Assembly: GCF_029962835.1 (NCBI RefSeq)
Contig: NC_080588.1
Location: forward strand, 16,634,001 to 16,698,000
Length of the DNA stretch: 64,000 nucleotides
From: Magnolia sinica
Lineage: Eukaryota > Streptophyta > Magnoliopsida > Magnoliales > Magnoliaceae
Direction of reading: 5' to 3'
Part shown: positions 9,801-34,366 of the stretch, one piece after another
Numbering within the stretch: position 1 is the first letter of the stretch
Layout of the letters: each line of letters opens with the position of its first letter
The notes under the pieces: model-generated
What the model was told of the DNA's origin: nothing
The model's input: only the letters and a program-made list of their open reading frames with translations
Databases searched by the model: none
Position numbers and translations under genes: made by a program

Positions 9801-10081
9801 AAGACTTTCGTCATGCGGTCGAGTTCCGATATGGAGTTTCAAGATGCTCCCAAGAGCAACTGAGTTTTGAGATGGATTCTAGATTTCAGGGTAACGTAGC
9901 ATCAATGATCCTGCACGTTTTGGGTCTTATAGATCATACTTAAACCGATTAGTGCTAATTTCACAAGCACTCTAGTTCAGCACTTACTAACTTTTACCTA
10001 ATTTCTAAAAATTTTTGGTCCTGGGTGATTTCTGTCTGAGGTGGCACTCGGGTCCCCGTACGGATTTTTCGAGACGTTACA
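6896..10081 (-). repeat. 3' LTR of the Ty3/gypsy element
   Basis: The LTR begins tgtaacg and ends cgttaca on the plus strand, and is the downstream LTR because the element codes on the minus strand. A TATA-like box (CCTATATAAGG, minus strand) lies at about 9293-9303. Open frames inside (for example 7820-8097) are not genes. Confidence 0.9.
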
Positions 10082-10082
10082 A

Positions 10083-10098
10083 TCTACCCCCCTTAAAG
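10083..10098 (-). other. Polypurine tract of the Ty3/gypsy element
   Basis: On the minus strand the sequence AAGGGGGGTAGATT directly abuts the 3' LTR, the expected site and composition of the plus-strand primer in LTR elements. Confidence 0.75.
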
Positions 10099-10099
10099 T

Positions 10100-13000
10100 A
10101 AAATTTTATCCTCGAAATTAGTACCTTTTCGTACTCCTCGAGAATCTGAGGGTAGTTCTTTCGAACCTCGGCTTCTATCTCCCAAGTAGCCTCTTCTTCC
10201 GTTTGATGCGTCCACAGTACTTTCACAAGTGGAATAACTTTGCTTCGCAACACCAGTTCCTTCCTGTCTAGGACACGCGTCGGTCGCAGTATATATATAG
10301 CATCCTCACTCAACTGCACCTGCTCCCATCTGATAATGTGGAAAGGATCGGGAACGTATTTCTTCAGCATAGAAACATGAAATATGTTATGCACACCAGC
10401 AAGTGGAGTGGGCAAAGCAAGGCAATATGCTACTGCCCCCACTCGATCAAGTATCTGGAATGGGCCAATGAATCGAGGCGTAAGTTTCCCCTTCTTGCCA
10501 AACCGAAGAACTCCCTTCATAGGGGAAACCCTGAAAAATACATGATCTCCGACCTCGAACTCTAGCGGCCGCCGCCTCGTATCGGCATAACTCTTCTGTC
10601 TGCTCTGCGCTGTCAACAGTTGGCGCCTGATAATGTCGACTTTCTCTTAGGTTGCCTGAACTAACTCCAAGCCAATCAGGCTCTTCTCGCCAACCTCTGC
10701 CCAGCAATGCGGTGCCCTACACGGACGCCCATACAGTGCCTCGTAAAGAGTCATGCCAATACTCGCCTGGAAGCTGTTGTTATAGGTGAACTCTGCATAA
10801 GGAAGATAGTCATCCCAACTGTCCTTAAAATCCAGCACACAGGCCCGCAACATATCTTTCAGAATCTGATTCACCTATTCCGTCTGCCAGTCAGTCTGTG
10901 GGTGGAACGCGGTACTGAATTTCAACTTCACACCCGTCACTTCTTGGATGCGAGTCCAGAAGATGGATGTAAATCGCGTGTCTCGGTCCGACACGATCTC
11001 CAAGGGAACTCCATGCAGACGTACGATCTCCTTGATGTACAACCTGGCCAACTCGTCTGTAGAGTTCGAAACTCTGATGGGGAGGAAATCAGCCGATTTC
11101 GTCAACCGGTCCACGATCACCCAAATGGAATCATAAGCCTTCCTCGTCTTCGGCAGCCCTGAGATAAAATCCATAGAGATGAAGTCCCACTTCCATTCAG
11201 CTATGAGCATGGGCTAAAGCAAACCAGGAGGTCGGTGATGCTCTGCCTTGACCTGCTAGCACGTGAGACAACGGGATACATAATCTGCTATGTGAGCCTT
11301 TATATTGTCCCACCAGTATGACTTCTTCATGTCACAGTACATCTTCATACTGCCTAGATGCATAGCCATCCGAGAATCGTGAGCGGCCTCAAGAACTTCC
11401 TTCCTCAAGTCAGGGAGGTTCGGGACGCATAGGCGGCCACGGTAACGTAAGCCCCCATCTGTACCAATGCTCTACTCTGAATCCTGATCTGCACTAACCT
11501 GCCCTCTCATCTTCGCCAATAGCTCATCGTCTGTCTGAGCCGCTTAATCCTGTCATCAATGAGGGACTGTACTCGAATATTTTCGATGCCTTCATACGGC
11601 TCCTCCAGTATGAGTTTCTGCTCAAAGTCTCTCACAAACTCTACCATGTCCCACTCAACTATCATTAACGGAGCCGCGAATGCTCAGTGCGTCTGCTACA
11701 AGGTTGGCCTTACCAGGATGGTAAGAGACTTCGAACTTGAAGTCCTTCAGTGTCTCCATCCATCATCGCTGCCTCATATTCAGGTCCCGCTGAGTGAATA
11801 TGTATCTGAGGCTCTTATGGTCGCAAAAGAGCTTGAACTCCTCTCCATAGAGGTAATGCCTCCAAATCTTCAAAGCAAAGATAACGGTAGCTAACTCCAA
11901 GTTATACGTAGGGTAGTTTTCCTTGTGTTTCCTCAACTACCGTGATAGGTAAGCAATAACCCTGTCCTTCTGCATCAAAATACCACCCAATCCGACGCGA
12001 GACGCGTCCGTGTATATCGTATACTTGACCCCTTGCTCTGACAATACTAACACAGGGGCGGACGTCAACTTGTCCTTCAGCTCCTGAAAAGCTGCTTCCG
12101 CCTTTTCATTCCAGGCGAACTTTAGATCCTTCCGTGTCAACTGAGATAGAGGTCTAGCTATCTTTAAGAAATCCTGACTGAATCGTTGATAATAACCTGT
12201 CAGACCAAGGAAACTCCTCACCTCAGTAACCGAACCGGGCTGCTTCCAATCCTGAACTGCGGCTACCTTAGCAAGGTCCATAGTTATCCCTTCTCTGGAC
12301 ACCACATGTCCCAGGAACTTGACTTCTTCTTTCCAGAAATCACATTTCTTATACTGTACAAACAGCTGGGTCTTCCTCAGAGTATCCAAGACTACTCGCA
12401 GGTGTTCTTCATGCTCTTCCCGACTCTTGGAGTATATAAGGATGTCATCAATAAACACGATGACGAATTGGAAAAGAAATGGCCGAAATACCCTGTTCAT
12501 CAAGTCCATGAACACGGCTGGTGCATTCGTAAGGCCAAATGACATTATGAGAAACTCATAGTGTCCAAAATTGGTCCTGAAGGCCGTCTTCTGTACGTCC
12601 TCATCCCTAACGCATAACTGGTGATATCCTGACTGTAGATCTATCTTCAAAAAATACCTTGCTTCCTTCAATTAATCGAACAGATCATCTATCCTGGGCA
12701 AGGGATACTTGTTCTTCACCGTCACTTGGTTCAATCTACGATAATCGATACATAATCGCAAAGATCCATCCTTCTTCTTTACAAACAACACAGGCGCTCC
12801 CTAGGAAAACACACTGGGTCGTATAAAGCCCGCATCCAACAGATCGTCGATCTGTTTCCTCAGCTCCTCCATCTCGCACGGAGCCATGCGATAGGTCGTA
12901 AGAGACATAGGTGTCGTACCAGCACTAGGTCGATGGTAAAATCAATTTCGGGCCGAGGGGTAAGTCCAGGTATCTTCCTAAACACGTCTGAGAACTGTTG

Positions 13001-13501
13001 GACCACAGGAGTGTCCTCAAGCGCTGGACCATGAGCGTTGTCCAGCATGGAAGCATAAAAATCAATGCGATAGGGCCAACTGACCTGTACTGGGAATGTA
13101 AAGGTCGTGCCCTCTGGTCCATAAGCTGTCACCACTCTACAATTGCAGTTAATTTCTGCCTTCATCTATGTGAGTCAATCCATACCGAGAATGACATCAT
13201 AGTGAAGTAATGGGGTGACAATCAAGTCGATGAGCGTTGTCCCGCTCCCTACATCTATCGAACATCCCTTACAGATCTTGGTAGCGTATGAGAAAGTCCC
13301 TGTGGCGGTAAGGATTCTCACCCCAACCATAGGACTAGTTTCCAATCCTAGCCGCTTGACTGCTGCGCACGATATGATAGAAACAGTGGACCCGGTGTCC
13401 ACTAGTAAAAAGATTGGAGTACCTTGGATATGTGTTGTAACATCAAAAGCTATAGGTGGCATAGGTGTTGCCTCTGATGCTTCAGCTGTAAGTGAGTGCA
13501 C
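10100..13501 (-). mobile_element. Fossil pol region: protease, RT, RNase H, integrase, chromodomain-like end
   Basis: Minus-strand segments show protease 'FLLVDTGSTVSII' (about 13400), RT with '[13 protein letters not shown]' (about 12430), RNase H start '[13 protein letters not shown]' (about 12000), an integrase core with 'GLPKTRKAYDSIWVIVDRLT' (about 11130), and a C-terminal segment (10077-10616) ending in a chromodomain-like 'VLWTHQTEEEATWE'. This is typical chromovirus order. The region is broken. Confidence 0.9.
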
Positions 13502-14441
13502 TCGAGCCTGTTGAAAACGGTTGGCTGAGGTACCATAGGCCGTTGAGGCGGCCTAGATCGAGGTACAGGTGGCCAGAATGATGGATGAGCTGGTGCCGAG
13601 CGTAGAGGTGGTGGTGATATAGTCTGTGGAAGCTGGCGGTTGATCCTCTGGGGCGGTGAAAAGCCGTTATCCTTTATCCTGGTGAAGCAAGTCACCTCCG
13701 TGTGGCCTGACCTCTTGCAGTAGGCACACCACACATTAGGTCGCCTCACAGGGGTAGGTGGAGCCATTAGTCTCAGCGGTGAATCTGCCCGTGCCCTCTT
13801 CCTGAGGAATGGTCTACCCTGAATCTCTGGTCACGGCCTAGGAGCCATCGGTGCTCACATACGGGACTGTCTGTCCCCGTCCTGCTCGGCCCTCATGGAC
13901 ATGCCCACTAGCTCAGAGTAGCTAAGTATGCTAGTGCAGCATATCTGCAACCGAATATCTGGTCGCAAGCCCAAGAAAAATGTCGCATACGCATCGGCTC
14001 ATCTGTCAGAATCAACAGGGCGTACCTGCCCAAGACCATGAACCTGTTCTCATACTCAGCCACTGTCATCCCTCCCTGTCGGAGGCGAAGGAACTCACTC
14101 TCCTCGTGGCTGTAGGTGACGGGATAGTACTTCTCGTGGAAGCGCACCTCAAAATCTGCCCACGTCCACACGTGTCCAACCACAACAGTACGGAGGACAC
14201 TATCCCACCATAAGTTGGCCTCCTTCTCGAACATGAAGGTGACCAACTCCACCTGCTCGGGCTCTGTACAGTGCAGCGGCTTTAGCATCTTAGAGATGCG
14301 GCCAAGCCAATACTTGGCCTCCTCGAGTCTGTGAGTACTCGTAAAAGTAGGGGACCGTAAGCGCTGGAATGGCTTAAAGTGGCCACTGACACCTGTATTC
14401 CCAGCAGGGGGTGTAAATGGAGCAGGCGAAGCCACACCCAT
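13450..14441 (-). mobile_element. Fossil gag region with CCHC zinc knuckle
   Basis: The minus strand carries a Gag capsid segment (stretches such as 'EANLWWDSVLR' and 'GGMTVAEYENRFM') and, closer to pol, a CCHC knuckle 'CAYCKRSGHTEVTC'. It matches Ty3/gypsy Gag in content and position. It is broken. Confidence 0.88.
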
Positions 14442-17196
14442 GCTCTAGGTAAAAATCCCCGCCATGGTGGCCAAAAACTGCTGCTGCTGCTGTGCCTGCT
14501 GCTGCTGCTATTTTATCTGCTGCTGCTACATCAACAACATCATCTGCTCCAACCTATCAGTAGGGGGAGCCGACTGAGATACAGGTGGCGTCGAGGAGGA
14601 CGCACGGTTCTGCCCTGGAACTGGTGGCGCAATAAGTGTAGGCCCATTAGTGGGGCCAGTGGCCGGCTAAGAGTCCGGTATGGTATCAGTGAGAGACGGG
14701 CCCGAACTGGGGTCCGTATGGTTATTGCTTAGGGGAGGTGCCCCGTCAAACGAATCGCCAAATGTGAGACATGCCGTACTCCGTGTGGTCTTAGGTAGCA
14801 TTCCCTATATACAACATAGGTGCAACCCAGGTCAGATTCAGCGTGCCCACAACCTCAATCACACAGCATTTACACACAGCTTATAGAAACTTCATGCATT
14901 TCATTTACCAAAATTGTCACAATTACATGAGATATGTCATAACATGAATCATGACAGGAAACGCATATGAGCTATTGCAAGTAAAGCTACTAACATTAAG
15001 TTAACTAACAAACACAAACACAAGCACTTCAACATTAAAACACAGACATTCTAAGACAGCAACAAAGCAAACTACTGGGCAACGACACGGATGACTAGAC
15101 ATCCGAGTCTGGCGACGGAGGAGGGGCGCCCTTATCCTGCAGGCAATACAGGATAGCTTTCAAAGTGTGGGTCACCTTCTTGAACTTGTGCTTCACAAGG
15201 GCCCGAGTATCAATGATCTCCTACCGCAGGGCAACCTGACCCTCCTCAAGTCGAACTAGACGGGCTTCCCTAACAACCCAATCAGGGTCATGCTCCGTTG
15301 CCGTAGGAGAGGAGCTCTCATCCGTGTCTTGAGCCTCCACTTCTTCTTCCTGTTCTTCTTCTATCTCCTCTCTACTTACCTCTTCATTATCATACTCTTC
15401 ACTAGCCGTCTTGTCTTCACTCTCATCGAGGAGGGCTTGTCGTTGCCGTGGGCCAATTTCCATCTGGTTGAAAGTAGCCTTGTTGATGTAATGGGTCGAC
15501 ACCGGCACTTCCGCTCCAAGTCTATAGCCAGACTCCCATGCAATTATGAATATGAGTCGGCCAAATGGAAGCGAATCAGACGCTCTAGTGGAGCATGCCG
15601 TAAGAACTATTTGCCGCAGAATGTGCGTAGGCACGCACAACTTCTCTCCCTGCCCTACTTGGTACAAAAAATCTACCATTAGACCGGTGCACTCGCTACG
15701 GATGCTCCACCTAGGGTACATGTGCGTGAAGATGTGGTGGAGTAGGCGAAAGTCATCAGTCATGTTAGTTGCTAGGAGTCCGTTGTTCGGATTCCAACGA
15801 GCCAGTTGTCTACAAAGGAATCACGTGCGGTGATCCCTTTCACGTACACTCTTCAAATTCTTCTCGCTTACATGCACTTCGCCAAGCGACATCTTCATAA
15901 ACCGAGCTATCAACCCAGCATCAATTGTGGCCTCCCGATCTCTACCAATAGGGATTTTGAACTGCAAGGGCTCCAACGTAGGCTCTCGAATGTAGGCGTA
16001 GAAGGCTTGGACTGTGTCCACATTTGCGAGGTACTCGCCCTCAAACATAGGACCCACCCGGCCTCAACCAGGCGGTCCATCACCAGATATTGCCCGAAGA
16101 GCCTCTCATCCACATGAGCTTCAAAGAGGACCCTGCGACCCTGAAATCTCCCATGAGACATATCCGTCAAGAGGATCCTTTCAAGGGGAGCCTGGGGATC
16201 AAGCTCCTGCTTAGTCCGTATCTCCCGGTCAACATTAGCACTTGTAGCGGCGCCTCTAGGCCCCCTTGAATGAGTAGGGCGGCCTTATCCGTAGGCATCC
16301 TCTTCTTCCCCATGAGAGAAAGAAGCGTGAAAATTGAGAAAATGGCCGTCACAAGCTCGAACAAGGCCATGGAAAAGAGAAGATAGGTGAAAAATGGAGG
16401 AGTTGTTGAACTTGATGGTATATGAAACACAAATGAGGGATTTGTGCTCTCAAATCAAAAGAAAAGAGAGAGATAGGAGAGGGTTTTGATGGAAAACGGT
16501 GGAAGGGTATGAGTGCTAAAGAAAAATAATGAAATGGGTGAATGGAGGAGAGATTTGAGAGAGAACCAAAGAGTTTTGAAGAAAAAGGGGAGCTTGGAGG
16601 GGTAGGTTATGAAGGGAAGATGTGTTAGGGGGGTTTAAATTCGTCCCAACGCACATCAATGGGCCACACTAGACCCTAGAGGCATCGGCCCGCCCGACCA
16701 GGCCTGCCAGCCGGAGAGGCCTCGCAGAACCGGCGAGGCCCTCGCCGGTCTCTGGACATTTTGGCGAGGTCTCGGCCTTTGGGTGAAATCCTCCTACCCC
16801 CTGGATTGTAAAAATATGTGGGGCCCATCCTGGGTCCCCCTGGAATTATTTCGTTTGGCCCCCGACTCCGTTTTGAGTCGTTTCGGATCATTTTATGTAA
16901 TTCTTGATGTAACCTCGTATTTTCTCAAGGGTTGAAGGCTGGGGTTGGGTAAATTATAGTCTAAACCCATCAATTGATGGTCTAGAAGTGGTCTGAGGTT
17001 ACCTCAAGCGATCACAGACGTGTACAAACCCGATCTCGGCGATCGTTTTCAGTAAATTTCACCAATTGGCGAAACTGGAAATCCTAAGCTTGTCTCTACA
17101 TTTTTCTCGTACCCACCTAGGTCTAAATGCGTCAGCGTACATCGTGTGACCATAACCCACGTCCGGTTTAATCCAAATCATGCTTGAATACCAACT
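14442..17196 (-). mobile_element. Leader region of the Ty3/gypsy element with an extra ORF region
   Basis: About 2.7 kb separates the 5' LTR from gag. On the minus strand about 15220-16310 carries fragmentary coding sequence resembling, from memory, the 'putative plant transposon protein' segments found in some large gypsy elements. It includes an 'RLLHHIFTHMYPRW' stretch and a strongly acidic Glu-rich tail (about 15290-15430). A CAG/CTG-rich stretch lies near 14475-14540. The extra region is broken, and its function is unknown. Confidence 0.55.
17178..17196 (-). other. Primer binding site, initiator-tRNA-Met type
   Basis: Directly inside the 5' LTR the minus strand reads AGTTGGTATTCAAGCATG. 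TGGTATTCAAGC agrees at 9 of 12 positions with the usual plant iMet primer site TGGTATCAGAGC. Confidence 0.55.
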
Positions 17197-25034: not shown

Positions 25035-25585
25035 TTTTAAAAGGAAAGGATTTGTCACTCCCCCCTACCTCCAGCCAATGGCTGATGGTCGGTGCTATGT
25101 TGGAACCACCATGATGTATGTGTATCATCCATTCCATCCATCTATTTTTACATATCATTTTATGATATAAGACCAAAAATGAGTTATATATAAATCTCAA
25201 GTGAACCACATTACAGGAAACAGTGTTGAATGAACGTTGACCATTAAAAACCTTTGGGGCCATAAAAGTTTTGGATCAAGCTAACCTTTATTTTTTTCCC
25301 TTAATCTGGGACTGTATGACCTAATCAACAGATTGTATGTTAAATAAACAGTACAGTGGGTCTTAGGAGGATTTTACTGGTGGATATCCAATCACTATTG
25401 TTTTCCTGTGGTGTGGTCCACCTGAGATCTATATTACTCTCATTTTTCTCACTAATTCCTAAAATGATATGTAAAAATGGATGAATGGAATGGATGAAAC
25501 ACGTACATCATGGTGGGGCCCATAGAGCACCGACCATCAGCCACCGGGCTGGTGGGAGGGGGAGTAGCCAATCCGTTCCCACCTT
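25035..25585. mobile_element. Inverted-repeat MITE of the 'cccaccatgatgtatg' family
   Basis: Ends 'ggaaaggatttgtcactcccc' and, reversed, 'gggaacggattggctactcccc' continue inward as inverted repeats through 'ggctgatggtcggtgct' to 'ccaccatgatgtatg'. The body is the same family as 57844-58396, with the same 'attggctactcccc/attggct' outer motif. It abuts the left target site of the large foldback. Confidence 0.65.
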
Positions 25586-25593
25586 AAAACTAA
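25585..25593. repeat. Left 9-bp target site duplication (taaaactaa)
   Basis: Identical to 34358-34366. The two copies directly flank the inverted termini of the large foldback. Confidence 0.9.
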
Positions 25594-26840
25594 GAGAAAT
25601 TTGCGACTGTACGACCCATTTATGGCCCATTTAGGAAACTACGCCCACCTCATTTTCCTCTGCGAGAATACGCCCGAGCTGTACGGAAGGCTTGCCAAAG
25701 GTCGAAAATGCCCCTGCTTGTTCCTTCAAGCGGATATGTGGTGCTCGAAGACGAGCGCTGACACTCCTCGAACTCCGAGTTGTACGAACGGTTCAAAAGA
25801 TATCAGAGTTACATGGGCCCCACAGTTACGTATTTATTATATCCACAACGTTCATCCATAGTTCGAGATCATTTCGGAGCATTATCAAAAAAAAAAAAAA
25901 TCCTATCCAAAGATCAACTAGACCACACCACAAAGAGCAAAGGGAAAATTGATTTTAACCGTTAAAAATTTTGTAGGGCCCACCGTAACATTTATTTTCC
26001 ATCCAATATATTCATAATGTCACAAAGAACTGGATGAAGAGGAAAAACAAATTTTGTAATGGTCCAAAACTTTTGGGACCCCTAAAAGGGTTTCAATGGT
26101 AGACGTTCAATCTTCCGTTGCCTTTTACAGTGTGGTCCACTTGATAGCTAAATCTGTCTTATTTTTCTTCCCAAGCGGTAGTACGAGTTCGCCAAATAGA
26201 TGGACGGTTTGGATATAACACATACCTCATAAAAGGACCCACAAAGGCGGTGTGGATTACAACAGGAAAAAAAAGAGCTGGTATCTTTGGCTACGGATTA
26301 TAACTGTAGCGATGACCGCAGCCAATGCTTTTTCAATGTCCTCTACTATACATCGAAGGTCTTTCGATATATACTTCGATATATCGAATGTCTTTCGATT
26401 AATCGGAAAAGGTCCAAAACAGTCCAGCAACTTTGCATAAAAAATCCTGCAATTTTCGATTAATCGAAGTGTATTCGATATGTATCGAAGATATAGCTAC
26501 AGATTATAGCTGTAGCCATAACTGTAGTCCGTAAAAGTCTATGCAAATTTTTTTATTTTTTATTTTTTATTTTTTAGTTTTTATTTTTTACATGGAGAAC
26601 TTTATCCTACCTACAATTTTCTCTAATACATATTTATATAAATATGTATATATAAGCATATAAAAAAAAAATTCTCTCTTTTTTTCATTTATTTCTCTAG
26701 TCATTCAACAAGAATATCTTATAAACCAAAATTAGTTACTTGATGTACCCTATATGATTTTGGGGTAGGAGAAGATACTTTAGCCAACTAACCTAGTTAT
26801 TTTCTAAGATTCCATCAGGTCGATGGTCGAAAATCCATTT
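25594..26840. repeat. Left outer arm of the foldback element
   Basis: It begins with ~210 bp of terminal repeat (gagaaatttgcgactg.. to ..ggttcaaaagatatcag). A copy of the 'cccaccatgatgtatg' family follows (about 25800-26245), then a small hairpin unit (26272-26540) and AT-rich DNA. Its reverse complement is 33110-34357. Confidence 0.9.
26272..26540. repeat. Small hairpin unit with tcgatatatcga core
   Basis: Edges 'ttggctacggattataactgtagc' and 'gctacagattatagctgtagcc' are inverted copies of each other. Between them are several cgatatatcga/cgattaatcg palindromes and the phrase 'cagtccagcaac'. It is a MITE-like insertion carried in both arms; the mirror copy is about 33412-33680. Confidence 0.6.
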
Positions 26841-26844
26841 CATT

Positions 26845-27020
26845 CACTCTGCGGTCAATTTCAATCAACTAACCTAGTGTATTTCGTGTTGATTCACGGT
26901 CGTTTTGAGGCATTTCGCGGTCAATTCCCTTCACTTCACGATCATTTACATGCATTTCGCGCTCAAATCGCTTCAAACCATGATCATTCCCATGCACTTC
27001 ACGGTCATCCAAAACAATTG
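26845..27020. repeat. Outermost satellite unit in reversed orientation, left arm
   Basis: The satellite text here runs as 'cacggtcgttttgaggcatttcgcggtcaattccc', the reverse of the array that follows. Orientation flips at about 27020-27040. The mirror of this arrangement is at 32986-33070. Confidence 0.75.
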
Positions 27021-27029
27021 TTTGAAGTG

Positions 27030-29220
27030 TCTGGAATATCATCGGTTGAGCGATTTGACGAAATGCATTTACGTGAAGTGAAGGGAATTGACCGAAATGC
27101 ACTTCACCGTGAATCACACGAATTGTTTGCAGCAACCGTGATCATGGAATTGATGCGATTTGAAGGATTGCGAAATGCATGCAAATTACCTTGAGTTGAA
27201 GTGAATTGACCGAGAAATGACTCGAAACGACCGAGAATCAACAAGTAATTGTTTGGGACGAAGTGAAATGCATGGGAATGATCATGGTTTGAAGCGATTT
27301 GAGCGAAATGCATGCAAATGACCGTGAAGTGATGGGAATTGACCGCGAAATGCCTCGAAATGACCATGAATCAACATGGAATTGTTTAGGACGACCGTGA
27401 AATGCATGGGAACGATCATGGTTTGAAGTGATTTGACCGTAAATGCATGCAAATGATCGTCAAGTGAAGGGAATTAACCGCGAAATGCCTCGAAACGACC
27501 GTGAATCAACACGGAATTGTTTGGGAAGACAGTGAAATGCATGGGAATGATCATGGTTTGAAGCGAATTGAACGCGAAATGCATGCAAATGACCGTGAAG
27601 TGAAGCGGAATTGCGCGAAATGCCTCGAAACGCCAGTGAATCAACACGGAATTGTTTGGGATGACGTGAAATGCATGAGAATGATCATGGTATGAGGGAA
27701 TTTGCCGCGAAATGCATGCAATGACCGTGGGTGAAGGGAATTGGCCGTGAAATGCCTCGAAATGCGATAGTGAATCAACACGGAATTGTTTGGGATGACG
27801 AGAAATGCATGGGAATGATCATGGTTTGAAGCGAATTGCGAAATGCATGCAATGACCGTGGAGTGAAGGCGAATTGACCACGAAATGCCTCGAAACGACC
27901 GTGAATCAACACGGAATTGTTTGGAATGACCGTGAAATGCATGAGAATGATCATGGTTTGAAGCGAATTGACCGCGAAATGCATGTAAATGACCGTGAAG
28001 TGAAGCGAATTGACCGCGAAATGCCTCGAAACGACCGTGAATCAACACGGAATTGTTTGGGACGACCATGAAGTGCATGGGAATGATCATGGTTTGAAGC
28101 GAATTGACCGCGAAATGCATGCAACTGACCGTGAAGTGAGGCGAATTGACCGCGAAATGCCTCGAAACGACCGTGAATCAACACGGAATTGTTTGGGATG
28201 ACAGTGAAATGCATGGGAATGATCATGGTTTGAAGCGAATTGACCGCGAAATGCATGCAACTGACCATGGAGTGAAGCGAATTGACCGCGAAATGCCTCG
28301 AAACGACCGTGAATCAACACGGAATTGTTTGGGATGACAGGGAAATGCATGGGAATGATCATGGTTTGAAGCGAATTGACCGCGAAATGCATGCAACTGA
28401 CCGTGGAGTGAAGGGAATTGACCGCGAAATGCCTCGAAACGACCGTGAATCAACACGGAATTGTTTGGAATGACCGCGAAATGCATGGGAATGATCATGG
28501 TTTGAAGCGAATTGACCGCGAAATGCATGTAAATGACCGTGGAGTGAAGCGAATTGACCGCGAAATGCCTCGAAACGACCGTGAATCAACACGGAATTGT
28601 TTGGGATGACCGCGAAATGCATGGGAATGATCATGGTTTGAAGCGATTTGACCGCGAAATGCATGCAAATGACCGTGGAGTGAAGGGAATTGACCGCGAA
28701 ATGCCTCGAAACGACCGTGAATCAACACAGAATTGTTTGGGACGACCGTGAAGTGCATGGGAATGATCATGGTTTGAAGCGAATTGACCGCGAAATGCAT
28801 GCAAATGACCGTGAAGTGAAGGGAATTGACTGCGAAATGCCTCGAAACGACCGTGAATCAACACGGAATTGTTTGGGATGACCGCGAAATGCATGGGAAT
28901 GATCATGGTTTGAAGCGAATTGACCGCGAAATGCATGCAAATGACCGTGAAGTGAAGGGTATTGACCGCGAAATGCCTCGAAACGACCGTGAATCAACAC
29001 GAAATTGTTTGGGATGACCGCGAAATGCATGAGAATGATCATGGTTTGAAGCGAATTGACCGCAAAATGCATGCAAATGACCGTGGAGTGAAGGGAATTG
29101 ACCGCGAAATGCGTCGAAACGACTGTGAATCAACACGGAATTGTTTGGAATGACTGTGAAATGCATGGAAATGATCATGGTTTGAAGCGAATTGACCGCG
29201 AAATGCATGCAAATGACCAT
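27030..29220 (+). repeat. 136-bp satellite array, left arm (about 16 units)
   Basis: The unit contains 'gaattgaccgcgaaatgc', 'gaccgtgaatcaacacgg' and 'gggaatgatcatggtttg'. From about 28010 to 29220 the period is exactly 136 bp with very similar units; from 27030 to 27900 units are diverged and indel-rich. Each unit contains the core gaccgcgaaatgc three times about 45 bp apart. Overlapping 63- and 101-codon frames on both strands repeat every 136 bp and are not genes. Confidence 0.93.
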
Positions 29221-29872
29221 GCAACTTAAGAGACTAGAAGAAGCACACTATGAACACAACTTGAAAAACATGGAGTGTGTACCGACATGGGTGTGTACTA
29301 ACAAGCTAACCTAAAAAAGTAAAACAAAAAAAATATTTAAAAAAAATAAAAAAAACACATTAGAAAAAAAACAGAAAAATTACACTTCGATATATCGAAT
29401 AGAACACGATATATCGAAACTCTTCGATATAATCGAAACCTAATCGATTAATGGTAGAGTAAGTTGTCGATTATATCGAAATCTAGTCGATATAATATTA
29501 GTAAGTCATCCTTACAACCGACCGATATATCGACTATTATTCGATTGATCGAAAATAGTCACAAACTGTCCAGCGACAAAATACTTTTTAAATTGTATTA
29601 TCGATATAATCGAGTAGATGTCGATATATCGAGGTATTGATATATCGACTAGATTTCGATATATCGAACATTGTCAGAAAATGTCCAGCGTCGAACTGCT
29701 TTTTTAGTGCAATTTTTCTGTTTTTTTTTCTAATGTGTTTTTTTTTTATATATATATTTTTTTGTTTTACTTTTTTAGGTTAGCTTGTTAGTACACACCC
29801 ATGTCGGTACACACTCCATGTTTTCCAAGTTGTGTTCATAGTTTGCTTCTTCTAATCTCTTAAGTTGTATGG
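29221..29872. repeat. Centre of the foldback element, with palindrome cluster
   Basis: The flanks of the centre are still inverted copies (aacttaagagactagaagaagc.. against ..gcttcttctaatctcttaagtt, and a shared 'gtgtgtaccgacatgggtgtgtac'). The unpaired loop is about 29380-29705. It holds at least eight tcgatatatcga-like palindromes and two 'tgtccagcg' phrases, resembling the unit at 26272-26540 and the upstream parts of some plant LTRs. No coding region. Confidence 0.75.
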
Positions 29873-32800
29873 TCATTTGCATGCATTTTGCGGTCAAATC
29901 GCTTCAAACCATGATCATTCCCATGCATTTCACAGTCATCCCAAACAATTTCGTGTTGATTCACATTCATTTCGGCGCATTCACGCTCAATACCCTTCAC
30001 TTCACGTCATTGCATTTCGCGGTCAAAAGCTTCAAACCATGATCATTCCCATGCATTTCGCTATCACAAACAATTCGTGTTGATTCACGCGTTTCGAGGC
30101 ATTTCGCGGTCAATTCGCTTCACTCGACGGTCAGTTGCATGCATTTCCAATTCGCTTCAAACCATGATCATTCCCATGCATTTCGCGGTCATTCCAAACA
30201 ATTCGTGTTGATTCACTTGTTTCGAGGCATTTCGCTGGTCAATTCCCTTCACTCCGCGATCAATTTTTGCGGACAATTCGCTTCAAACCATGATCATTCC
30301 CATGCATTTCCTATCATCCCAAACAATTCCGTGTTGATTCACTGACGTTTCAAGGAATTCACTGTCAATTCGCTTCACTCCATGGTCGATTGCATGCATT
30401 TCGTCAATTCGCTTCAAACCATGATCATTCCCATGCACTTCATGGTCGTCCCCAAACAATTCCTTGTTGATTCACTATTGTTTCGAGGCATTTCGCGGTC
30501 AATTCGCCTCACTTCACCGTCATTTTTTCGCGGGCAATTCGCTTCAAACCATGATCATTCCCATGCACTTCATGGTCGTCCCAAACAATTCGGTGTTGAT
30601 TCACGGTCTTTCGAGGCATTTCGCGGTCAATTCGCTTCACTCACGATCCATTTACATGCATTTGCGGTCAATTCGCTTCAAACCATGATCATTCTCATGC
30701 ATTTCACGGCATTCAAACAATTCCGTGTTGATTCATGGTCGCTTCAAGGCTTTCACGGGCAATTCCCTTCACTCCACGGCCAATCCCCTTCTTTCGCGGT
30801 CAATTCGCTTCAAACCATGATCATTTTCATGCATTTCACGGTCATTCCAAACAATTCCGTGTTGATTCACGGTTGTTTCGAGGCATTTCGCGGTCAATTC
30901 CCTTCACTCCACGGTCATTTGCATGCATTTCGCGGTCAATTCGCTTCAAACCATGATCATTTCCATGCATTTCATGGTCATTCCAAACAATTCCGTGTTG
31001 ATTCACGGTCGTTTCGAGGCATTTCGTGGTCAATTCCCTTCACTCCACGGTCATTTGCATGCATTTTGCGGTCAATTCGCTTCAAACCATGATCATTCCC
31101 ATGCATTTCACGGTCATCCCAAACAATTCCGTGTTGATTCACGATCGTTTCGAAGCATTTCGCGGTCAATACCCTTCACTTCACGGTCATTTGCATGCAT
31201 TTCGCGGTCAATTCGCTTCAAACCATGATCATTCCCATGCATTTTGCGGTCATCCCAAACAATTCCGTGTTGATTCACGGTCGTTTCGAGGCATTTCGCG
31301 GTCAATTCCCTTCACTTCACGGTCATTTGCATGCATTTCGCGGTCAATTCGCTTCAAACCATGATCATTTCCATGCACTTCACGGTCGTCCCAAACAATT
31401 CCGTGTTGATTCACTATGTTCGAGGCATTTCGTGGTCAATTCCCTTCACTCCACTGGCATTTGCATGCATTTCACGGCCAAATCGCTTCAAACCATGATC
31501 ATTCTCATGCATTTCGTGGTCATCCTAAACAATTCCGTGTTGATTCACTATCCCTTTCGAGGCATTTCGCGGTTCATTCACTTCATGGTCGATTGCATGC
31601 ATTTCACGGTCAATTCGCTTCAAACCATGATCATTCCCATGCACTTCATAGTCGTCCTAAACAATTCTGCCTTGATTCACGGTCGTTTCGAGGCATTTCG
31701 CGGTCAATTCGCTTCACTCCACGGTCATTTACATGCATTTCGCGGTCAATTCGCTTCAAACCATGATCATTCCCATGCATTTCGCGGTCATTCCAAACAA
31801 TTCCGTGTTGATTCACGGTCGTTTCGAGGCATTTCGCGGTCAATTCCCTTCACTCCACGGTCATTTGCATGCATTTCGCTTCAAACCATGATCATTCCCA
31901 TGCATTTCCCTGTCATCCCAAACAATTCCGTGTTGATTCACGGTCGTTTCGAGGCATTTCGCGGTCAATTCGCCTCACTTCACGGTCAGTTGCATGCATT
32001 TCGCGGTCAATTCGCTTCAAACCATGATCATTCCCATGCACTTCATAGTCGTCCTAAACAATTCTGCCTTGATTCACGGTCGTTTCGAGGCATTTCGCGG
32101 TCAATTCGCTTCACTCCACGGTCATTTACATGCATTTCGCGGTCAATTCGCTTCAAACCATGATCATTCCCATGCATTTCGCGGTCATTCCAAACAATTC
32201 CGTGTTGATTCACGGTCGTTTCGAGGCATTTCGCGGTCAATTCCCTTCACTCCACGGTCAGTTGCATGCATTTCACGGTCAATTCGCTTCAAACCATGAT
32301 CATTCCCATGCATTTCCCTGTCATCCCAAACAATTCCGTGTTGATTCACGGTCGTTTCGAGGCATTTCACGGTCAATGCCCTTTACTGCACGGTCAGTTG
32401 AATGCATTTCGCGGTCAGATCGCTTCAATCCATGATCATTCTCATGCACTTCACGGTCGTCCCAAACAATTCCGTGTTGATTCACGGTCGTTTCGAGGCA
32501 TTTCGCAGTCAATTCGCTTCACTTCACGGTCATTTGCATGCATTTCGCGATCAATTCGCTTCAAACCATGATCATTCCCATGCATTTCACGGTCGTCCCA
32601 AACAATTCCGTGTTGATTCACGGTCGTTTCGAGGCATTTCGCGGTTAATTCCCTTCACTTGACGATCATTTGCATGCATTTTACGGTCAAATCACTTCAA
32701 ACCATGATCATTCCCAGTCGCAAATCACGGTTGTCGCAAACAATTCCGTGTTGATTCACGGTCATTTCGAGGCATTTCGCGGTCAATTCCCTTCACTTCA

Positions 32801-32985
32801 CGGTCAGTTGCATGCATTTCGCGCTCAAATCGCTTCAAACCATGATCATTCCCATGCATTTCACGGTCGTCCCAAACAATTTCATGTTGATTCACGGTCG
32901 TTTCGAGGCATTTCGCGGTCAATTCTCTTCACTTCACCGTCATTTGCATGCATTTCGCACTCAAATCGCATCAATTCATGATCAG
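29873..32985 (-). repeat. 136-bp satellite array, right arm (about 23 units), inverted
   Basis: Same satellite as the left arm in opposite orientation. Units at 29873-30800, near the centre, are diverged with many small deletions. From about 30840 to 32600 they are near-identical at 136-bp spacing. A block is duplicated at a 397-bp offset (31640.. and 32037..), equal to three units minus an 11-bp deletion at about 31877. Open frames of 322 and 236 codons across this array are by-products of the repeat. Confidence 0.93.
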
Positions 32986-33070
32986 CGGTGTTGCATGCAA
33001 CTGACCGTGAAGTGAAGGGAATTGACCGCGAAATGCCTCGAAACGACCGTGAATCAACACGAAATAGACT
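32986..33070 (+). repeat. Outermost satellite unit in reversed orientation, right arm
   Basis: The text 'ctgaccgtgaagtgaagggaattgaccgcg' is in the orientation of the left array, i.e. flipped relative to the rest of the right array. It mirrors 26845-27020. Confidence 0.75.
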
Positions 33071-33109
33071 AGGTTAATTGATTGAAATTGACCGCAAAGT
33101 GAATGAAAT

Positions 33110-34357
33110 GGATTTTCGACCATCGACCTGATGGAATCTTGGAAAATAACTAGGTTAGTTGGCTAAAGTATCTTCTCCTACCCCAAAATCATATAGGGTA
33201 CATCAAGTAACTAATTTTGGTTTATAAGATATTCTTGTTGAATGAATAGAGAAATAAATGAAAAAAAGAGAGAAATTTTTTTTTTTATATGCTTATATAT
33301 ACATATTTATATAAATATGTATTAGAGAAAATTGTAGGTAGAATAAAGTTCTCCATGTAAAAAATAAAAACTAAAAAATAAAAAATAAAAAAATAAAAAA
33401 ATTTGCATAGACTTTTACGGACTACAGTTATGGCTACAGCTATAATCTGTAGCTATATCTTCGATACATATCGAATACACTTCGATTAATCGAAAATTGC
33501 AGGATTTTTAATGCAAAGTTGCTGTACAATTTTGGACCTTTTCCGATTAATCGAAAGACATTCGATATATCGAAGTATATATCGAAAGACCTTCGATGTA
33601 TAGTAGAGGACATATTGAAAAAGCATTGGCTGCAGTTATCGCTACGGTTATAATCCGTAGCCAAAGATACCAGCTCTTTTTTTTCCTTGTTGTAATCCCC
33701 ACTGCCTTTGTGGGTCCTTTTATGAGGTATGTGTTATATCCAAACCGTCCATCTATTTGGCGAACTTGTACTAACGCTTGGGAAGAAAAATAAGACAGAT
33801 TTAGCTATCAAGTGGACCACACTGTAAAAGGCAGTGGAAGATTGAACGTCTACCATTGAAACCCTTTTAGGGGTCCCAGAAGTTTTGGACCATTACAAAA
33901 TTTGTTTTTCCTCTTCATCCAGGTCTTTGTGACATTATGAATATATTGGATGGAAAATAAATGTTACGGTGGGCCCTACAAAATTTTTAACGGTTAAAAT
34001 CAATTTTCCCATTGCTCTTTGTGGTGTGGTCCAGTTGATCTTTGGATAGGATTTTTTTTTTTTTGATAATGCTCCGAAATGATCTCGAACTATGGATGAA
34101 CGTTGTGGATATAATAAATACGTAACTGTGGGGCCCATGTAACTCTGATATCTTTTGAACCGTTCGTACAACTCGGAGTTCGAGGAGTGTCAGCGCTCGT
34201 CTTCGAGCACCACGTATCCGCTTGAAGGAACAAGCAGGGGCATTTTCGACCTTTGGCAAGCCTTCCGTACAGCTCGGGCGTATTCTCGCAAAGGAAAATG
34301 AGGTGGGCGTAGTTTCCTAAATGGGCCATAAATGGGTCGTACAGTCGCAAATTTCTC
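33110..34357. repeat. Right outer arm of the foldback element
   Basis: Reverse complement of 25594-26840 with only scattered substitutions and small homopolymer differences. Ends '..cagtcgcaaatttctc'. Confidence 0.9.
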
Positions 34358-34366
34358 TAAAACTAA
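34358..34366. repeat. Right 9-bp target site duplication (taaaactaa)
   Basis: Perfect copy of 25585-25593. Confidence 0.9.

Follow-up and report, generated by a model that had tools for sequence, protein, structure and literature searches.

How a plant genome comes to carry kilobases of DNA in mirror image, with tandem satellite repeats built into both halves, is the question raised by a locus of Magnolia sinica. The window analysed here, a stretch of 64,000 nucleotides (C16:16634001-16698000 of a host genome of 1.84 Gb in 127 contigs), contains at positions 25594-34357 an inverted-repeat element of 8764 bp, flanked on both sides by an exact 9-bp duplication. Is such a structure an assembly error, a single transposon that picked up a satellite, or one copy of something more general? 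We conclude that the window element, itself well preserved, belongs to a foldback transposon family whose copies run into the hundreds, that the satellite belongs to the whole family and not to the window copy alone, and that the two arms of an element evolve in concert.

Anatomy of the Window Element

The element starts with GAGAAATTTGCG at 25594 and ends with its reverse complement at 34357; immediately outside these termini stands TAAAACTAA, at 25585-25593 and again at 34358-34366. Inward from either end, the order is an outer arm of 1.3 kb, an array of 136-bp units and the edge of a 652-bp centre. The left outer arm (25594-26893, plus strand) and the right one (33053-34357, minus strand), aligned as 25594-26893 against 34357-33053, share 97.55% identity across an alignment of 1306 columns, and the arms with their arrays come to about 4 kb each. 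Around the centre (29219-29870, hereafter type I) the arrays lie in opposite orientation, with 15 units matched in the left array (27139-29159, plus strand) and 23 in the right (29930-32984, minus strand). The first-pass annotation of this DNA had described inverted termini with a perfect 9-bp duplication, outer arms about 98% identical and 136-bp arrays mirrored around a short centre, all of which these measurements bear out.

The 136-bp unit also has a less pronounced periodicity inside it, clearest at lags of 21, 42, 94 and 115, those of 21 and 42 bp being visible in the left array. A lone satellite unit (26881-26998, minus strand), placed between the left arm and the main left array, is inverted relative to that array; no mirror partner was matched beside the window's right arm, a place where one was matched in many other copies. 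Compared with its own reverse complement, the centre is a weak palindrome (75.5% over 686 columns), strongly symmetric at its outer edges only; its core is asymmetric, holds TCGATATATCGA-like motifs, and the A+T content of the centre is 69.8%. TCGATATATCGA-like palindromes near a GTCCAGC motif occur both in the left arm (26375-26467) and in the centre (29386-29689), and perhaps represent a shared module.

When the first and last 500 bases of the element were joined in a folding model, 495 positions were paired, which merely restates the symmetry and is expected of any such palindrome. Any transcript running through the element could pair over kilobases, and would be a candidate precursor of small RNAs, as the first-pass annotation suggested.

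A Large Family with a Shared Build

The exact 24-base terminus was matched 246 times in the genome (118 forward, 128 reverse), and its reversed control 0 and 0 times, which excludes chance; the figure counts exact termini, and the total copy number, with mismatched termini added, may differ. Among the first 100 of these termini listed (C1 to part of C7), 27 adjacent pairs stand in forward-then-reverse order within 50 kb, spanning 4.4-44.9 kb with a median of 9345 bp, and 3 adjacent pairs show other arrangements. The first 307 bases of the left arm recur across the genome, with many matches at 98-99%, and gave 3543 first-look candidates when used as a query; of the 41 matches listed (best 40 scored), 40 were 98-100% identical and one, a short match, 95%. 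No counterpart of the arm turned up in a search of plasmids.

For the comparison of anatomy we used 20 elements, the window element and 19 others, taken from 10-kb stretches at 19 of the 21 other forward-strand arm matches; the stretches covered 20 loci, two of them belonging to one long element. Since the 19 others were picked by arm similarity, the sample leans to young copies. Arm and array were found in all 20 elements, and a centre in 16 (the window element and 15 of the 19 others). Three of the centre-less elements (L017, L024 and L027) have a main array of a single orientation, and the fourth (L021) is truncated. The number of units varies between elements as well as between the two arrays of one element. 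In these copies we find what characterises foldback (FB-like) transposons, namely long inverted arms with tandem repeats around a short middle, present in many copies with target duplications. The long element just mentioned (L014/L015, C18:60607833-60622755) measures 14.9 kb, with a right array of about 7.3 kb.

An exact target duplication of 9-10 bp was present in 20 of the 32 elements with both ends readable, which, together with the 246 termini, upholds the first-pass interpretation of a transposed foldback with a target duplication. In a first set of 12 two-ended elements, the duplication was exact over 9 bp in five; reading by eye added an exact 10-bp duplication in L018, 9-bp duplications displaced by one base in L011 and by four bases in L012, and duplications with one mismatch in L020 and L028. 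The second set comprised 20 further elements from terminus pairs, read as end pieces, of which 14 had an exact 9- or 10-bp duplication and three a duplication with one mismatch in nine.

Assemblies are known to go wrong at palindromes, and the mirror image could on that account be an artefact or a chimera. We regard this as extremely improbable: the window arms are about 2.4% apart and their arrays unequal in unit number, and many copies with different flanks show the same structure, ending in duplications, while no copy of the reversed terminus exists beside the 246 real ones.

The left flank of the window element (25394-25580) is itself part of another dispersed repeat, with matches of 88-91% (4058 first-look candidates). 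These matches mostly stop about 13 bases short of the insertion point; the element thus sits just past the edge of another repeat.

Two Centre Types

Five elements (L009, L011, L018, L019 and L025) carry a second type of centre, type II. In the three compared in detail (L009, L019 and L011), gene-like sequence of about 270 bp stands in place of the right centre edge, and the asymmetric core is the same in both types (97% over positions 1-496 in L009). The gene-like insert of L019 (4690-4950) is an open frame, near-identical in L009 and L011. It had no Pfam match, and against the PDB it gave one weak match, to a designed protein (E 0.014). The type II fragment had 165 first-look candidates in the host, and no parent gene was located among the best 40 of these 165, all of which are near-identical copies. 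A host gene fragment captured between the ends would be the mark of a Pack-MULE, for which this insert is a candidate at most. At C15:23260215-23266503, three copies of the type II fragment, all oriented alike, follow one another at intervals of about 3 kb, possibly a local amplification of the centre.

The Two Arms of an Element Evolve in Concert

Arm sequences were compared in a full set of 36 two-armed elements, 16 of which formed a first sample. At 28 sites with a minor frequency of at least 0.15, the two arms of an element agree in 800 of 933 cases (85.7%), while shuffled partners agree in 61.6% on average and in 71.9% at most. Shuffling only inside groups that share the base at position 83 raises these values to 72.7% and 80.2%, still below the observed agreement. 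Leaving out E08, whose arms are only 73% identical, gives 735 of 863, against a shuffled mean of 62.4% and a maximum of 72.3%. At position 83 itself, the arms agree in all 34 readable elements.

Rarer variants give the same picture. Of 209 variants present on just two arms in the whole set, 26 had both bearers in a single element, whereas 5000 shuffles gave a mean of 2.77 and a maximum of 14; these 26 come from 11 of the 36 elements, and without E08 the count is 24 of 174. In the first sample it was 15 of 100 (shuffled mean 3.12, maximum 12). Among transversions, 14 of 77 were of this kind, with a shuffled mean of 1.16 and a maximum of 8.

Type II elements have variants of their own, usually on both arms of the carrier. 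Of their 10 arms, eight have C at arm position 83 (two fall short of it), seven have A at 563 and nine have G at 778; none of these occurs in the 19 type I arms. C at 1041, likewise absent from the 19, is carried by L011 and L025, in each case on both arms. G at 160 separates the types less cleanly (6/10 against 2/19, the latter two belonging to the window element), and so does A at 694 (6/10 against 1/19). Among 20 elements read later, five overlap type II fragment matches, and these have C at 83 on all 10 arms, A at 563 on six and G at 778 on all eight readable ones; C at 1041 repeats poorly, on two of eight readable type II arms. Six of the 15 later elements that overlap none of these matches, which are the best 40 of 165 candidates, also have C at 83, always on both arms; these six may be of either centre type.

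We also considered that the two sides of the palindrome, A and B, might have separate histories, a proposal that we rejected: the top frequency difference between them, 0.40, is no larger than what shuffling the labels 100 times can produce (0.22-0.58, on average 0.39). When arms are named by centre orientation, they are undifferentiated, with identities of 96.45% on the same side and 96.40% on opposite sides. In the first sample, own arms were 96.9% identical and arms of different elements 96.4%.

The agreement could in principle reflect recency alone, the palindrome having formed once from a single arm shortly before the burst of transposition, with no exchange afterwards; the first arm tree, star-like and with very short inner branches, is compatible with that. 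We nevertheless find such a history unlikely. Both centre types share their asymmetric core, yet type II has its own variants on both arms, and the agreement of own arms persists inside position-83 groups and in rare variants, transversions included. Own-arm agreement and shared variants are thus unlike what is predicted from a single palindrome origin with independent arms thereafter.

The Satellite Is Part of the Family

Averaged over 13 elements read with their arms, arrays and centre, there are 25.4 matches per element to a frequent satellite 24-mer and 1.08 to the terminus. If the satellite were confined to family elements, the 246 termini would predict about 5800 occurrences in the genome, and 5727 were counted; the prediction takes the unread elements to be like those 13, and the mean excludes forms that lack a centre or are cut off. 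The count fits confinement to foldback elements, as an agreement of totals that is no proof against free arrays. Among the satellite matches listed, there are two small groups of three (C1:4.01 and 6.99 Mb). At C1:32297574-32304300 (32.2976-32.3043 Mb), at least 28 satellite matches lie in a single orientation with no flip, possibly an expanding array.

The relationships between units were followed in 243 near-full-length units from 14 elements only. Mean unit identity was 0.921 within an array, 0.919 between arms and 0.9185 between elements, values so nearly equal that these means show no array homogenisation element by element, which we had considered. There is a mild excess of nearest matches within the own element (41 of 243 units, against 2145 of 29403 unit pairs of that kind). 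When the best match of a unit lies in another element, the distances of the two units from the outer arm are correlated (Spearman rho 0.50; from the centre, 0.32), and best matches are equally frequent on the same side (120) and on the mirror side (123). The arrays thus descend for the most part from parents in which the two halves mirrored each other already.

These results bear on the origin of the satellite. The first-pass annotation saw in the window copy an element that had mobilised a multi-kilobase satellite, and more generally a MULE (Mutator-like element) may have captured a pre-existing genomic satellite and then spread it as an inverted pair. An origin outside the element is possible inasmuch as the units have no meaningful similarity to the outer arm, the best shared word being 10 bp. 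Capture of a free satellite nevertheless appears improbable to us: the agreement of 5727 with the predicted total indicates no comparable free source, and units keep some positional correspondence across elements. Mobilisation by the window copy finds no support, the array being family-wide. Nor, with that same 10-bp word as the best, is there support for a satellite that arose from the arm, the origin put forward for Tetris, a foldback of Drosophila.

Superfamily Assignment and a Proposed Mechanism

The sequences establish a modular palindrome that inserted with 9-10 bp duplications, spread from array-bearing parents and has concerted arms. Overall, we think it quite likely that we are dealing with a non-autonomous, probably Mutator-like foldback family. 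Target duplications of MULEs range from 8 to 11 bp, and duplications of about the typical 9 bp are found in the window and in the family. MULE transposase (PF10551) gave 1104 first-look candidates in the host, and all of the best 150 of these 1104, which were scored, lie above the cut-off. Between family ends, no transposase was found in the middles of five long end pairs. Satellite or centre sequence fills L029, L033 and part of L031; there are no family matches in L030, L032 and the rest of L031, and the middle of L030 has a frame that by eye resembles the reverse transcriptase of a long interspersed nuclear element (LINE). Duplication length and plentiful host MULEs, none of them found between these ends, make the terms 'non-autonomous' and 'Mutator-like' likely rather than proven. 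The 'Mutator-like' of the first-pass annotation accordingly stays plausible but unproven: the 9-10 bp duplications fit it, and no transposase is tied to the ends.

Another DNA-transposon superfamily with a similar duplication length might be involved instead, given that foldback anatomy is convergent: Galileo, whose arms are internally repetitive, is placed in the P superfamily. We see little room for this option. Duplications of 9-10 bp are typical of MULEs, and among the foldbacks of plants, FARE1 and MuTAnT have been assigned to the MULEs (PMC4486113). Mutator-like remains the likeliest superfamily.

Several observations weigh against the overall account of a transposed Mutator-like family with concerted arms. 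Besides the missing transposase, the Mutator assignment draws solely on duplication length, and convincing duplications are lacking in L013 and L016 (two of 12 in the first set) and in three of 20 elements of the second. A query made of the joined window flanks found no uninterrupted empty site in the host genome, a search swamped by the left-flank repeat: the query matched the two flanks of the window separately, and the best 40 of 4058 candidates, the window apart, all matched the left flank alone. As for the arms, agreement is incomplete at some sites (falling to 22 of 31 at position 937 and 13 of 22 at 984, the two lowest), some type II variants sit on a single arm (L011 at 563, L009 at 778), and E04 and E09 are discordant at 694. 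Array unit numbers often differ between the two arms, for example 10 against 28 in L011. Own arms have a small advantage in mean identity (0.949 against 0.937 in the 36 elements), and 25 of the 36 have no shared two-arm private variant, which together suggest that exchange was partial or took place mostly before insertion. Moreover, copying from arm to arm could account for the concert, and so could a palindrome formed anew, time after time, out of a single arm; the data do not separate the two.

In the mechanism that we propose for the Mutator-like family, a transposase from a MULE elsewhere in the genome would act in trans, cutting at the GAGAAATTTGCG ends. The two arms might correct each other by gene conversion, by template switching at breaks, or when a gap left by excision is repaired off the mirror arm. 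Unequal exchange and slippage within arrays may alter the unit number and yield the centre-less forms by deletion. It is tempting to go a step further, although we give this step somewhat less than an even chance: ongoing copying from arm to arm would keep both arms alike, arrays included, mutations would reach both arms, and palindromic subfamilies would replace one another. The array may then be the homology tract that drives copying, and the satellite a working part instead of cargo.

Comparison with Known Foldback Elements

The comparisons below draw on parts of the cited reports. A close likeness is to Tetris, a foldback of Drosophila virilis with an outer flanking domain, an array of tandem units of about 220 bp, an inner domain and a non-coding middle (PMC4079207). 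Tetris, too, is apparently non-autonomous, makes 8-10 bp duplications and varies in unit number. It differs in having arms of up to 1,735 bp, compared with about 4 kb in the window element, and in that its repeat also forms longer satellite-like arrays outside the element, of which our counts indicate none (PMC4079207).

Tm1 of root-knot nematodes likewise has composite arms with tandem repeats variable in number, and duplications of 8-10 bp, mostly 9, in 45 of 53 elements; its unit is of about 14 bp, copies of 1.1 and 2.6 kb are described, its transposase is of the Phantom type and its end motifs are asymmetric (PMC3169594). Galileo of Drosophila shares the long, internally repetitive arms, which have been proposed to attract recombination and conversion (PMC3573991). 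Apart from the superfamily, the difference is that exchange was proposed there, whereas arm agreement was measured in the Magnolia family. In plants, FARE of Arabidopsis (named in PMC4486113 and PMC3169594) and MuTAnT of Medicago (PMC4486113) are similar in being foldbacks classed with MULEs. MuTAnT, with 9-bp duplications and 218 copies, differs in its length (about 200 bp to more than 1.6 kb), its TA microsatellite targets and its known transposase-bearing partner (PMC4486113). For a hairpin RNA, the precedent is Mu killer of maize, an inverted Mutator-derived sequence for which such an RNA has been proposed (PMC3440606); that is a single rearranged locus with transposase gene sequence, while in the Magnolia family a transcript is hypothetical.

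By analogy, then, the architecture corresponds to a known foldback type, that of Tetris, with related forms in Tm1 and Galileo. The first-pass annotation called a satellite in inverted arms unusual, which is too strong, tandem repeats in foldback arms having been described in the consulted parts of the Tetris, Tm1 and Galileo reports, in shorter arms. The kind was already known; what is new is the family and how large it is, the existence of two types of centre in it, and the concert of its arms, here measured. No description of a plant foldback family with kilobase satellite arrays was found in titles and abstract openings, which is weak evidence of absence, as the subscription literature lies mostly outside them.

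It is unsettled why DNA transposons that are unrelated to each other have time and again acquired arms of great length with repeats inside them. The Magnolia family, whose copies are large, well assembled and numbered in the hundreds, and whose centres are of two types, makes arm exchange, array turnover and satellite birth directly measurable. The family suggests, too, that a tandem repeat may be abundant in a genome and yet stay inside a mobile element.

Other Features of the Window

Elsewhere in the window, pieces of a long terminal repeat (LTR) retrotransposon lie on the minus strand at 10077-15820, with matches to gag, reverse transcriptase, RNase H and chromodomain among the ten frames tested. 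An open frame at 50922-51587 matches zf-RVT and is probably a LINE remnant. Finally, an Rfam scan of the window at the gathering threshold returned two transfer RNA (tRNA) genes and nothing else; these are tandem tRNA-Asn (GTT) genes at 1073-1148 and 1224-1299, 75 bp apart.

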